This document shows positions 16,449-34,097 of a DNA stretch of 64,000 nt, in pieces. A program made the translations under genes and the position numbers. Below the pieces are notes generated by a model. It was not told where the DNA came from and did no database searches. It saw only the letters and a list, made by a program, of their open reading frames with translations. This DNA comes from Hyphomicrobiales bacterium (GTDB taxonomy: Bacteria; Pseudomonadota; Alphaproteobacteria; Rhizobiales; Methyloligellaceae). The stretch spans positions 62,001 through 126,000 of the forward strand of contig JAJFHP010000023.1 of assembly GCA_021775555.1 (NCBI GenBank), written 5' to 3'. Numbering within the stretch: position 1 is the first letter of the stretch; every line of letters starts with the position of its first letter.

Positions 16449-16853
16449 TCAAGCCTGCTCCAATTCGACCAAGGTGCCGTTGAAATCCTTTGGATGAAGG
16501 AACAGTACGGGTTTGCCATGGGCGCCCTCTTTAGGCTTACCATCACCCAGAACCCTCAATCCGGCCTTTACGAGGCGATCGCGGGCGGCAGAGATATCAT
16601 CGACTTCGTAGCAAATATGATGGATGCCGCCAGACATATTCCGTTCCAGGAAACCCGCAATTGGGGAACCTTCACCTAAAGGTTCAAGCAGTTCGATCTT
16701 TGTATTTGGCAGCTCAATGAAAATAGTTGTGACCCCGTGATTGGGTTGTGCCACAGCATCGGACACCGTTGCACCCAGCGTGTTGCGGTAAATCGCGGCT
16801 GCTGCCTCTAGGTCGGGTACGGCGATGGCCACGTGATTGAGGCGTCCGATCAT
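16449..16853 (-). CDS. mce: Methylmalonyl-CoA epimerase
   Basis: Interconverts (R)- and (S)-methylmalonyl-CoA in propionyl-CoA metabolism. A single glyoxalase/VOC-fold protein of 134 residues: RLNHVAIAVPDLEAA at the N-terminus gives the first metal histidine (residue 7), GGIHHICYEVDDI the second, and the terminal LVELEQA the glutamate. It lies between rnj and DUF1467. Confidence 0.92.
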   Translation of the reverse strand: MIGRLNHVAIAVPDLEAAAAIYRNTLGATVSDAVAQPNHGVTTIFIELPNTKIELLEPLGEGSPIAGFLERNMSGGIHHICYEVDDISAARDRLVKAGLRVLGDGKPKEGAHGKPVLFLHPKDFNGTLVELEQA

Positions 16854-28927: not shown

Positions 28928-30238
28928 CTACTCTGCCGCAACCGGTTCGCGCACTGCGCCATCCGGCTTCGAGTTGGCGCTATACTGGTCGATACGCTCT
29001 TCAATGACATGCCGGAAATGGCTGATAAGCCCCTGCACCGGCCATGCAGCTGCATCTCCAAGCGCACAGATGGTGTGGCCCTCGACCTGGTATGTCACTT
29101 CTAAGAGCATATCGATTTCACGCTTTTCAGCTTCCCCGCGCGCCATGCGGTCAAGGACTCGGTACATCCAGCCCGTACCCTCGCGGCATGGCGTGCACTG
29201 ACCGCAGCTTTCATGCTTGTAGAAGTACGACAGCCGGGCAATGGCGCGAATGATGTCCGTACTCTTGTCCATGACGATAACGGCGGCCGTTCCGAGACCT
29301 GATCTGAGTGCCGATAATGAATCAAAATCCATATGCAAATTCTGGCACATGTCAGTCGGCAAACACCGTACCGATGACCCGCCAGGTATAACGGCGAGAA
29401 TATTATCCCAGCCGCCGCGCACCCCACCCGCATGGCGATCCAGCAATTCCCTTAATGGGATTCCCATTTCCTCTTCTACATTGCAGGGACGGTTCACGTG
29501 GCCTGATATGCAGAACAGTTTCGTCCCGACATTGTTGGGACGGCCAAGGCCTGAAAACCAGCCAGCGCCGCGCCGCAGGATATCCGGCACGACGGCAATG
29601 CTTTCGACATTGTTCACGGTCGTGGGAGCCCCGTAGAGGCCTGCATTGGCCGGGAATGGGGGTTTCAGCCGTGGTTGGCCCTTCTTGCCCTCCAGGCTCT
29701 CCAGAAGCGCTGTCTCTTCGCCGCAAATATACGCGCCTGCTCCATGATGGAGGTAGAGATCAAAATCCCAACCATTCTGGTTGTTCTTGCCGATAAGCTT
29801 GGCGGCATAAGCCTCATCAATGGCTGCTTGAAGCGTCTCGCGTTCGCGTATGAATTCACCGCGAATATAAATATATCCAGTGTTCGACCCCATGGCGAAA
29901 CCTGCAATCAGGCAGCCTTCGATCAGCAGTTGCGGGTCGTGGCGCATGATCTCCCGGTCCTTGCAGGTGCCGGGTTCAGACTCGTCTGCATTGACGACCA
30001 GATAATGGGGGCGACCATCCGATACCTTGGGCATGAAGGACCATTTCAGACCGGTGGGGAAACCAGCACCACCCCGGCCGCGCAATCCGGATGATTTGAC
30101 TTCTTCGATAACCCAGTCGCGTCCATTGGCGAGGAATTTTTTCGTACCGTCCCACGCACCGCGTTTTTGCGCAGCTTTCAAGCCCGGGCTTTCAAACCCG
30201 TACAGGTTGCGGAAAATGCGATCTTCGTCTTTGAGCAT
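28928..30238 (-). CDS. nuoF: NADH-quinone oxidoreductase subunit F
   Basis: NADH- and FMN-binding subunit, 436 residues. Contains the glycine-rich [16 protein letters not shown], the FMN region ([15 protein letters not shown]), and the N3 cluster motif [12 protein letters not shown] with the distal Cys in [13 protein letters not shown]. Its ATG shares one base with the nuoE stop (TAATG). Confidence 0.96.
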
Positions 30239-30897
30239 TATTTCCCGCCTCTCTTGGGCGTGGCTTTTGAGCTTGTTGAACGTTTAGACTTGGAAGACGT
30301 GGAACCATTAAGCAATGTCGTCGGCCCGCCCTCGGGACAAGAAAATTGCCGTCCATTTTGTGGCCCGGGCTTCACTTCTTTTCCTTGACGCAAGTCATTG
30401 AGTAGTTTTTCAAAGCTCTGAGCCGTCAGGTCCTCGTAATAATCCTTGTTGATCTGCACCATGGGTGCATTGGTGCAAGAGCCGAGACATTCGACCTCAA
30501 GCCATGACAACATGCCATCCTCAGTAACCTGATTCTGCTCACCAATCACCTGTCTGCAGACCTCTTTCAGATCGTCTGCACCTCGCAGCCAGCAAGGTGT
30601 CGTGCCGCACAGTTGAACGAAGTATTTCCCCACAGGCGAGAGGTTGAACATGGTGTAAAAAGTGGCGACCTCGAGCACGCGGATGACGGCCATATCCAGT
30701 ATTTCGGCAACGGCCCGTATCGCTGGTTCGGGCAGCCAACCGTCATGTTGTTCCTGTGCCCGCCACAACAACGGAATGACCGCGGAAGCCTGTTTTCCTT
30801 TTGGATATTTCTTGATCTGGTCTTTAGCCCACTTGGCGTTTGCCGCTGTGAATTTGAAGCTCTCGGGCTGGACAGGGTCAACTCGGCGCACACTCAT
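30238..30897 (-). CDS. nuoE: NADH-quinone oxidoreductase subunit E
   Basis: 24-kDa-type subunit with 2Fe-2S cluster N1a. Ligands C97, C102, C137 and C141 (CGTTPC and CLGSC) are all present. At 219 residues it is longer than the E. coli protein (166) because of a Ser/Lys/Thr-rich C-terminal tail ending [10 protein letters not shown]. The start overlaps the nuoD stop (ATGA). Confidence 0.95.
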
Positions 30898-32078
30898 CTG
30901 TCCACCTCCCCGAAAACGATGTCGAGTGACCCCATGATGGCCGAAACATCAGCCAGCATGTGCCCCCTGCAGAGAAAATCCATGGCCTGTAGGTGGGCGA
31001 AACCCGGGGCGCGGATTTTGCAGCGATATGGCTTGTTGGTGCCATCGGAAACGAGATATACGCCGAACTCACCCTTGGGAGCTTCAACGGCTGCATACAC
31101 TTCGCCCTCGGGCACATGATAACCCTCTGTGTAGAGCTTGAAATGATGGATCAGCGCTTCCATGGAACGCTTCATTTCACTGCGTTTCGGAGGGACAATT
31201 TTCTGGTTAATTGCCGAGATGGGCCCGCCTTGATCACGCAATTTATGGCAACATTGCTGCATCAGACTGACCGATTGGCGCATCTCTTCCATGCGGATAA
31301 GATAGCGGTCGTAGCAGTCGCCATTCTTGCCAACGGGAATATCGAAGTTTAACTCATTGTAGCATTCATAAGGTTGGGATTTGCGCAGGTCCCAGGCGGC
31401 ACCCGATCCGCGCACCATGACGCCGGAAAATCCCCAGGCAAATGCATCTTCAAGTGAAACGATTGCGATATCCACATTACGCTGTTTGAATATGCGGTTA
31501 TTCGTAAGCAGTCCCTCGATATCATCCAGGACCTGCAGGAAGGGATCGCAGAAGGCTTCTATATCGTCGATGAGTTCGGGTGGTAAATCCTGATGAATTC
31601 CTCCAGGGCGCACATAGGCAGCATGTAACCTGGAGCCTGATGCGCGCTCATAGAAAATCATGAGCTTTTCACGCTCTTCAAAACCCCAAAGGGGCGGCGT
31701 TAGCGCACCGACATCCATTGCCTGGGTGGTGACGTTCAAAAGGTGCGACAGAATCCGGCCGATTTCGGAAAAAAGCACGCGAATGAGCTGTCCGCGCCTG
31801 GGCACTTCAATGCCGAGAAGTTTTTCCACTGCCAGGGCAAAGGCATGCTCCTGGTTCATCGGGGCGACATAGTCGAGCCTGTCAAAATAAGGCACGGCCT
31901 GCAGATAGGTTTTATGCTCAATGAGCTTTTCGGTACCGCGATGTAGCAGGCCGATATGCGGATCAACGCGTTCGACCACCTCGCCATCAAGTTCAAGAAC
32001 CAGGCGCAACACACCATGGGCGGCTGGGTGTTGCGGCCCGAAATTTATGGTGAAGTTGCGAATTTCTGTTTCGGCCAT
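30894..32078 (-). CDS. nuoD: NADH-quinone oxidoreductase subunit D
   Basis: 49-kDa-type subunit lining the quinone site, related to hydrogenase large subunits. 394 residues from the ATG at 32078; the family N-terminus ([20 protein letters not shown]) starts at once, whereas the longer frame to 32144 overlaps the preceding thioesterase gene. Other conserved blocks: [13 protein letters not shown] and the C-terminal DIVFGEVDR. Confidence 0.95.
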
Positions 32079-32089
32079 CTTCTTGATCT

Positions 32090-32515
32090 CTACGCGCACG
32101 CTCTGGCGCGTTTGCCCTCGACGCGCGCGTTGAACCGGTCCCATTTGACGATGAAGCGTTCGTGACGTCCTTTACCAATCAGGTCCACGCCGTCATGGGC
32201 GCACACCCGGAATTTTGCTCTTGGTCCCCGTAATTCCGTTATTTCCGCATCTACCGTTACGGTCATGCCTGGAGGAGTGGCCGCCTGATGGGATACGTCA
32301 ACATGGGTGCCCAGTGATCCTTCATCATTTTCCATATGTGATTCAAGAAGTTGAATGCAGGCCCATTCAAGCAGTCCAACCATGTATCCAGTCGCAAGTA
32401 TATCCGGCATATGCTGGAATTGCGGCGCTTCCGGATAGAGATGGGGTACGGTTTTATTGGCAGGCACCACATATTCAAAGCGGTGCTTCAGACCAGTTTT
32501 GAGCGTGTCCTTCAC
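32090..32515 (-). CDS. FlK-like hotdog thioesterase inside the nuo operon
   Basis: A 141-residue single hotdog-fold protein resembling fluoroacetyl-CoA thioesterase FlK and related acyl-CoA thioesterases: [19 protein letters not shown] followed by [18 protein letters not shown], then the RFIVKW end strand. Thr42, Glu50 and His76 occupy the positions I recall for the FlK catalytic triad. The ATG overlaps the nuoC stop (ATGA) and nuoD starts 11 nt after its stop, so it is co-translated with complex I genes. It is not a known complex I subunit; the substrate is unknown. Acyl-CoA hydrolysis or detoxification is inference. Confidence 0.85.
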
Positions 32516-33141
32516 GAGGAGCCTTCCCCGTTTTCAGCTTCGCCTGCCTTTTCATCGCCCGGAAGCACATATTCGCTCCCCTCCCAGGGACTCATGGCAT
32601 CAAATGAGCGGAATTCCTGTGCGAGTTTGACCGGTTCATAAATCACCCTCTTCTGCTCATCATCGTAACGAACCTCTACAAAACCTGTCAGCGGAAAATC
32701 CTTGCGCAGCGGATGACCTTTAAAACCGTAGTCGGTGAGGATGCGCCGCAAATCGGGATGATCGGAAAACAGAATTCCATATAGATCAAAGGCTTCTCGT
32801 TCGAACCAGTTGGCGGCAGGAAATATATCAACCACACTGGGGACAGGGCTTGTTTCATCCGTGCTGGTTTTAACGCGAATACGCAAATTCTGACGCGGGC
32901 TGAGGAGGTGATAGACGACCTCAAAGCGTTTTTTGCGTTCAGGATAATCCGCGCCGGCGATATCTATAAAGCAGTCAAACAGGCAACGGGCATCACCCTT
33001 GAGGAGTTTGAGCACCTCGGGCACCTGTTCGCGGACCACACCTAGCGTCAATTCTCCGTGGGTGACATTCCAACCGGTCACGGCAGTATCACCGAGCGTT
33101 TCGGCCAGGTAGTCACCCAGGTCTTTCAGAGCCGCATCCAT
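32512..33141 (-). CDS. nuoC: NADH-quinone oxidoreductase subunit C
   Basis: 30-kDa-type peripheral subunit, 209 residues, separate from NuoD (fused in E. coli). The family signature [14 protein letters not shown] and the [29 protein letters not shown] region (in parts) are present. The stop overlaps the next gene's start. Confidence 0.95.
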
Positions 33142-33174: not shown

Positions 33175-33741
33175 CTAGCGCTCGATTGTTCCGGTTCTGC
33201 GAATTTTCTTCTGCAGAAGCAATATCCCGTAAAGCAATGCCTCGGCTGTCGGCGGACATCCCGGCACATAGATGTCAACAGGAAGAATGCGATCGCAGCC
33301 CCGCACCACGGAATAGGAATAGTGATAATAGCCGCCCCCATTGGCGCAACTGCCCATGGAAATTACATATCGCGGTTCTGGCATCTGGTCGTAGACCTTG
33401 CGTATCGCTGGTGCCATTTTGTTGGTCAGGGTTCCTGCAACAATAATCACGTCGGACTGACGCGGACTGGCCCTCGGAGCAAAGCCGAAGCGCTCCACAT
33501 CATAGCGCGGCATGGATGCCTGCATCATTTCCACAGCGCAGCATGCGAGGCCGAACGTCATCCACATAAGCGAGCCCGTGCGCGCCCAATTGATGATTTC
33601 ATCAGTCGAAGTGACGATAAAGCCCTTGTCGGCCAGCTCGTTGGAAATATCCGAAAAATAGGGAGACAGTTCTGGCGACGCTCCAGGAAGCGCTACGCCC
33701 TCGCGGCGATGATCGAAAACCGGTGACGGGATTAATCCCAT
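33175..33741 (-). CDS. nuoB: NADH-quinone oxidoreductase subunit B
   Basis: Carries cluster N2, the last iron-sulfur centre before quinone. From the ATG at 33741 the protein has 188 residues, with ligands C67, C68, C132 and C162 ([22 protein letters not shown]). The upstream ATG at 33762 is also in frame, but GGGAG lies about eight bases before 33741, which also gives a conventional N-terminus. Either start lies close to or overlapping the nuoA end. Confidence 0.95.
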
Positions 33742-34097
33742 TCGAGAGCTCCCTTCCGCCATTCATAGATAAAGCCGATGGTTAGGATCCCCAGGAATAT
33801 CATCACTGCCCAGAACCCGAATGCACCGACCTCTTTGAATGCGACTGCCCACGGGAACAGGAAGGCCACTTCCAGATCGAAAATGATAAACAGCAGAGCG
33901 ACAAGGTAGAATCGTATATCGAACTTCATGCGCGCGTCGTCGAACGCTTTGAAACCGCATTCATAGGCAGAGACTTTTTCCGGGTCCGGATTGGAAACTG
34001 CAACTATGAATGGGGCGGCCAGGAGAACAAGTCCGATGACCAGAGCAACACCGATAAAGATGACAACCGGCAGGTAGTCTAGGAACAGTTCGTTCAT
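33732..34097 (-). CDS. nuoA: NADH-quinone oxidoreductase subunit A
   Basis: First gene of the nuo operon, a three-helix membrane subunit of 121 residues. [20 protein letters not shown] is the family signature. The frame opens at 34136, but the ATG at 34097 leads directly into the conserved first helix and is preferred. The nuoB reading frame begins within its last codons. Confidence 0.94.

Follow-up and report, generated by a model that had tools for sequence, protein, structure and literature searches.

A gene for an FlK-type hotdog thioesterase sits between nuoC and nuoD in the complex I operon of a Hyphomicrobiales bacterium. The enzyme family is known, its place here is unexpected and conserved, and the supported tie to complex I is one of co-expression, not of structure. 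The window (the whole stretch of 64,000 nucleotides that was analysed) belongs to a 3.5 Mb genome in 76 contigs, and the gene, which encodes 141 aa from a GTG start, occupies positions 32090..32515 on the minus strand. The reading we favour, with moderate confidence, is that the product is a competent FlK-type thioesterase acting on a small activated CoA ester, expressed with the nuo operon and not a subunit of complex I. FlK is well known for fluorine discrimination, and the question addressed here is what its relatives do elsewhere; close relatives with invariant active sites in a complex I operon offer a concrete place to seek a native substrate.

The protein matches the Pfam FlK family (PF22636) with an E-value of 8e-31 and 106.6 bits against a curated cut-off of 27, and the NCBIfam models gave no match. 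A phmmer search of the PDB recovered Streptomyces cattleya FlK (E 5e-47), with residues 1-135 colinear with residues 1-135 of that enzyme. An AlphaFold2 model built from 11 sequences (pLDDT 92.2, pTM 0.82) adopts the hotdog fold, and Foldseek searches with this model returned FlK crystal structures as the top matches (~52% identity, TM 0.83). The residues Thr42, Glu50, Gly69, His76, Asp108, and Arg120 are present and are invariant in all 48 nuo-linked copies described below; Thr42, Glu50, and His76, together with Gly69, are those we take to be catalytic. Position 33 is more variable across the same copies (Phe in 27, Leu in 18, Ile in two, and Met in one). Pfam score, full-length colinearity, catalytic residues, and fold all place the protein in the FlK family, and the preliminary description, which had recognised an FlK-like hotdog protein with a Thr42, Glu50, and His76 triad, was if anything too modest.

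Estimates of dN/dS for nuo-linked copies range from 0.06 to 0.15 in eight pairs, a rough range since dS exceeds 1 in two of them; a ninth pair was saturated, and one pair of thioesterases from outside the order gave 0.18. Low dN/dS and recurrence at this position in other genomes indicate that the gene is more than a chance reading frame, and the invariant catalytic set combined with purifying selection argues for a working thioesterase.

The operon runs on the minus strand in the order nuoA-B-C, the 141-aa gene, nuoD-E-F, and further genes. Pfam confirms both neighbours between which the gene had been placed, namely nuoC, encoding the 30 kDa subunit (32512..33141; PF00329), and nuoD, encoding the 49 kDa subunit (30894..32078; PF00346). 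The remaining nuo genes carry names that we presume from their sequences: open reading frames assigned as nuoB (33175..33762), whose product served as the NuoB query and matches in nuo loci, nuoE (30238..30897), which also matches in nuo loci, and nuoF (28928..30238), with matches in loci L032-L035 and L037-L039. All are on the minus strand. The GTG start of the thioesterase (32515-32513) overlaps the TGA stop of nuoC (32514-32512) in a GTGA motif at 32512..32515; the overlap had been described correctly, while the start codon of the gene had been given as ATG. The reported 11-nt spacing from the thioesterase stop to nuoD (32079..32089) holds with the nuoD ATG at 32078, which was chosen because alignments with the nearest NuoD copies begin there, whereas the listed nuoD reading frame has an alternative ATG at 32144, within the thioesterase gene.

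Its place in the operon speaks for production alongside the respiratory chain, through coupling to the translation of nuoC. Gene position gives good support for such co-expression, as a predicted property of the operon. The preliminary description had treated the coupling as seen and the protein as made with complex I; the overlap geometry is indeed present, and coupling in fact is what we infer from it.

Another CoA enzyme appears to be encoded in the nuo neighbourhood, downstream of nuoN, by a glyoxalase-fold gene at 16449-16853 on the minus strand of the window, probably a methylmalonyl-CoA epimerase by our assumption; it also lies downstream of two genes that we take to be biotin ligase-like and ribonuclease J-like. 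The source genome also encodes a second, shorter FlK-family paralogue of 132 aa (L157:3369-3767, contig C34), next to what is apparently a class IV aminotransferase gene.

The place of the thioesterase is conserved within Hyphomicrobiales. In a family sample of 30 genomes, source genome included, 26 carry a full-length copy, and all 26 copies lie between NuoC and NuoD. The order sample comprised 297 Hyphomicrobiales genomes (12 from the same family) under 52 family labels. Some match was found in 58 of them, while close full-length copies (E 7e-38 or better, at least 49% identity) occur in 30 and are missing from the other 267. Seven of the 52 family labels are represented among these 30 copies, which without exception lie at the nuoC-nuoD junction in the same orientation. 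Five loci with weaker matches in the order sample (two in G090 and one each in G119, G083, and G282; 38-43% identity) were inspected, and nuoA-F were not found at them. Additional nuo-linked records came from a Xanthobacteraceae MAG, Pseudolabrys sp., and Rhizobium sp. Q54. Loci L032-L035 and L037 were left out of counts, as they appear to match genomes already counted, which leaves 48 nuo-linked copies.

Among these 48, the thioesterase overlaps the nuoC stop by 4 nt in 33, lies 0-21 nt away in eight, and is more than 30 nt away in seven, most of which have a small intervening ORF. The codon at the aligned first residue is ATG in 33 copies, GTG in 14, and TTG in one. A candidate NuoC-thioesterase fusion (L079) was rejected, as a stop codon and 21 nt separate the two genes in the sequence. 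The check on position and triad across Hyphomicrobiales nuo operons proposed in the preliminary description thus comes out positive, with 30 of 30 close copies in this position and the triad intact in 48 of 48; the insertion is not unique to the source genome, and every close homologue found in the order sample is linked to nuo, so neither of the outcomes that it had held against a functional tie was observed. Complex I operons are treated in passages of PMC4859585, and a thioesterase within a nuo operon was not seen among the literature matches listed.

A conserved position does not by itself distinguish a gene tied to respiration from a passenger. Among thioesterase-free loci, the nuoC-nuoD junction holds at least 250 nt in 8 of 45, compared with 0/42 at A-B, 0/45 at B-C, and 0/33 at D-E (8/45 versus 0/120 for the three other junctions; Fisher p 1.9e-5). 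These loci are a non-random set, mostly chosen for high NuoC similarity or from selected families, and junctions were compared within the same loci. With carriers included, spacers of this size occur at B-C in 3 of 91 (all three carriers), at A-B in 0 of 82, and at D-E in 0 of 54. The eight occupied thioesterase-free loci (L049, L050, L058, L162, L163, L169, L175, and L177) hold a GFA protein gene in three cases, a 23S rRNA intervening-sequence protein gene (PF05635) in four, and a gene for a small acidic protein in one, with identities established by Pfam for one of the three GFA and one of the four intervening-sequence loci and by similarity for the rest. In six distinct carriers under three family labels (L016, L075, L078, L079, L080, and L087), a GFA gene additionally separates the thioesterase from nuoD; the one at L016 was identified by Pfam (PF04828).

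In the loci examined, inserts thus favour the nuoC-nuoD junction, which warns against reading function from operon membership: a slot that takes unrelated genes need not confer a function on its occupant. The thioesterase could accordingly be a passenger that merely uses operon expression at a junction tolerant of small inserts, with no tie to respiration. The junction counts, the other occupants of the slot, and the lack of the gene in half of the genus sample speak for such a passenger; on the other hand, every one of the 30 close order-sample copies sits at this junction, and the 4-nt overlap recurs in 33 of 48 nuo-linked copies. We regard this explanation as possible, though appreciably less probable than the favoured one.

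The absences within the source genus bear on a different alternative. Four of its eight sampled genomes have no full-length close copy, and in them nuoC and nuoD are adjacent on a single contig; nuoB is also kept in these genomes, cut by the contig end in G027. In G024 (L193, the same place as L044) the nuoC-nuoD spacer contains an in-frame, 33-codon remnant of the thioesterase that retains the GTG start overlapping the nuoC stop and the last thioesterase codons, and reads on into the start of nuoD; its coupling geometry survives the deletion. Shuffled sequences reached the score of this remnant in 0/500 trials for three of five reference copies, and in 2/500 and 125/500 for the others, and it is a clear deletion scar. 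A 20-codon ORF in G025 is suggestive only, as a putative scar: shuffles reach its score in 0 and 1 of 500 trials for two references and in 13, 19, and 337 of 500 for the others, and the similarity lies within shuffles under a second scoring. G029 has a 13-codon ORF with no detectable thioesterase similarity (56-199 of 500 shuffles reach the score), and in G027 nuoC and nuoD overlap, leaving no space for a remnant. These sister genomes are in effect natural deletion mutants, and they mark the thioesterase as dispensable.

A subunit would be expected wherever the lineage keeps complex I, and absence of the thioesterase from genomes that retain nuo genes argues against one. An accessory subunit or assembly factor, for example one handling an acyl-carrier thioester, would nevertheless account for the conserved place with its coupling overlap, and for a rate of evolution near that of NuoC: across 595 pairs, median identities are 61% for the thioesterase and 66% for NuoC, although the pairwise identity of the thioesterase tracks that of NuoC only partly (r 0.49). 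Besides the losses, this explanation has against it the invariant active site, which is what an enzyme would show, and a phylogeny of concatenated NuoB, NuoC, and NuoD from 76 loci (one row with a short NuoD was left out), in which carriers are scattered among non-carriers over several family labels.

The history of the thioesterase itself is less regular. An IQ-TREE phylogeny of 58 rows groups nuo-linked thioesterases in clusters and not in one clade, with three changes of the nuo label against a mean of 18.3 for shuffled labels, and gives S. cattleya FlK no firm place. FastTree, by comparison, recovers the nuo-linked copies and two others as one group with support of 0.88 and puts FlK beside the lpd-linked copies. 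A single origin in the slot is not shown by the IQ-TREE result, given its three changes, nor is descent of S. cattleya FlK from the nuo group, given the unplaced FlK. Thioesterases under family labels f49, f21, and f23 are alike (74-80% identity), a hint of possible transfer between lineages. The gene was probably present early at nuoC-nuoD in Hyphomicrobiales and would have been retained there and repeatedly lost, and it may occasionally have moved between lineages.

Outside the order, 12 homologues were recovered at 48-58% identity: seven from a class sample of 289 genomes, one from a phylum sample of 299, two from betaproteobacterial records, and two from a small order. Within the 4.3 to 12.4 kb examined around each, nuoA-F were found near none of the 12, and further searches yielded no additional carriers. 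A plasmid search returned 18 records (best identity 48.6%), of which four were examined. Five of the 12 (G512, G392, G497, G841, and G842) lie near a presumed lpd gene. In G512 the two overlap by 4 nt, in G392 the thioesterase follows sucA-sucB-lpd, and in G497 lpd is about 2 kb away; in G497 and in G378 the thioesterase is followed by thiolase and CoA transferase genes. For the other seven, no lpd link was found in the 4.3-12.4 kb around each, the G378 contig ending 1.1 kb upstream. The names lpd, sucA, sucB, and CoA transferase, and likewise acnA and lipB below, are our assignments from sequence; Pfam, applied to both thiolases and to two lpd products, supports the oxidoreductase family for the latter.

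Two of the 12, in G351 and G575 (L142 and L143), lie a few genes from acnA, and in G772 (L150) an FlK-type thioesterase gene is ~0.9 kb from lipB, which is on the opposite strand. The acnA product is aconitase, the target of fluorocitrate.

None of the 12 close copies outside the order was found in a nuo setting; together with the losses, the invariant active site, and the NuoBCD tree, this makes an accessory or assembly function very improbable. The functional tie to complex I in the preliminary description survives as co-expression, by position, while a structural or assembly role is not supported; losses in the genus, unrelated genes in the permissive slot, and outside-order homologues elsewhere all weaken a tie to complex I itself. 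The five lpd-linked homologues also count in part against a mere passenger, since they favour oxidative-metabolism neighbours. For the favoured reading, lpd, sucA-sucB, and the thiolase and CoA transferase genes are central oxidative and CoA metabolism again.

On the favoured reading, the thioesterase would hydrolyse a small activated CoA ester of the 2-substituted acetyl type; left intact, such an ester would poison the TCA cycle or be a metabolic dead end for it. The complex I operon would govern expression of the gene, by way of its translational coupling to nuoC, and the enzyme would thus be made whenever the respiratory machinery is. Glycolyl-CoA is a guess at the natural substrate, suggested by chemistry. 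A broader and rather unlikely version holds that FlK was originally a housekeeping guard of alphaproteobacterial oxidative metabolism, built into operons for producing or consuming NADH (those of complex I in Hyphomicrobiales, lpd and 2-oxoglutarate dehydrogenase elsewhere) and removing a natural 2-substituted acetyl-CoA side product such as glycolyl-CoA. If this were true, S. cattleya would have recruited and specialised its fluoroacetate-resistance enzyme from an older guard role, a descent that the IQ-TREE result neither supports nor excludes.

Two metabolic associations were considered. A match to Fae (PF08714) occurs in 60 of the 297 order-sample genomes (59 over the cut-off) and in 18 of the 30 carriers (Fisher p 4e-7, kinship ignored). 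Despite this positive raw association, methylotrophy was rejected as a general explanation because 12 of 30 carriers have no Fae match. The source genome has none either. Crotonyl-CoA carboxylase/reductase (TIGR01751) exceeds the cut-off in 168 of the 297 genomes; carriers match in 30 of 30 by best E-value, and at least 28 of 30 are over it among the matches listed (raw p 1e-8, kinship ignored). A link to the ethylmalonyl-CoA pathway is consistent but uninformative, because the p-value ignores kinship and 34 of 42 non-carriers in the NuoBCD tree also match with a best E below 1e-110.

Fluoroacetyl-CoA, the substrate of S. cattleya FlK, or another haloacetyl-CoA offers a more specific alternative, in which the enzyme would confer resistance and guard the TCA cycle against environmental haloacetates. 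The ~52% identity to FlK and the full catalytic set speak for it, as does a Delftia acidovorans plasmid pUO1 homologue (WP_011137957.1) encoded next to a fluoroacetate dehalogenase gene and near crcB; this homologue is however only 43% identical. Among the listed ORFs of the window and the slot genes no dehalogenase was recognised by eye, and no feature recognised around the nuo genes suggests a link to fluorine. Position 36 of the nuo-linked copies is Met in 46, Leu in one, and Ile in one. Phe36, which we take to be the fluorine-selective gate of FlK and hence a mark of the fluoroacetyl-CoA-specific enzyme proper, is thus missing in 48 of 48, which would count against this substrate. We dropped Met36 as an argument, however: the homologue from the pUO1 fluoroacetate locus has Met36 too, so Phe36 may not be defining and its absence is no objection to fluoroacetyl-CoA. 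Overall, we consider a dedicated haloacetate-resistance role improbable.

Several known systems are available for comparison. The FlK-like hotdog fold is shared by Thermus thermophilus TTHA0967 (2cwz) and Thermotoga TM0581 (2q78), which are 32% and 20% identical and have PDB titles that say only hypothetical or thioesterase-like. S. cattleya FlK (PDB 3kv7, 3p2q, 3kx8) shares with the protein described here full-length colinear sequence, the hotdog fold (modelled here), T42, E50, G69, H76, and F33, but has Phe36 where this protein has Met36, and belongs to a fluorometabolite cluster and not to a nuo operon. According to passages of PMC5485738, FlK prefers fluoroacetyl-CoA 10^6-fold over acetyl-CoA and is thought to bar its entry into the TCA cycle; fluoroacetyl-CoA is also named in passages of PMC2654016, PMC6628094, PMC11139923, PMC3999930, and PMC11812338. 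The pUO1 homologue shares the family, T42, E50, G69, H76, F33, and M36, whereas its gene lies between those for a methyltransferase and the dehalogenase, an alpha/beta hydrolase whose structural matches are to fluoroacetate dehalogenases (E 7e-127). A cluster similar to the pUO1 one is described for Caballeronia sp. S22 in a passage of PMC11812338. A further comparison is with the five lpd-near homologues from Alphaproteobacteria outside the order (51-58% identity), whose genes lie next to or near that for dihydrolipoamide dehydrogenase, in G392 with sucA-sucB as well, and not in a complex I operon; the three that were aligned (G512, G392, and G497) share the full catalytic set.
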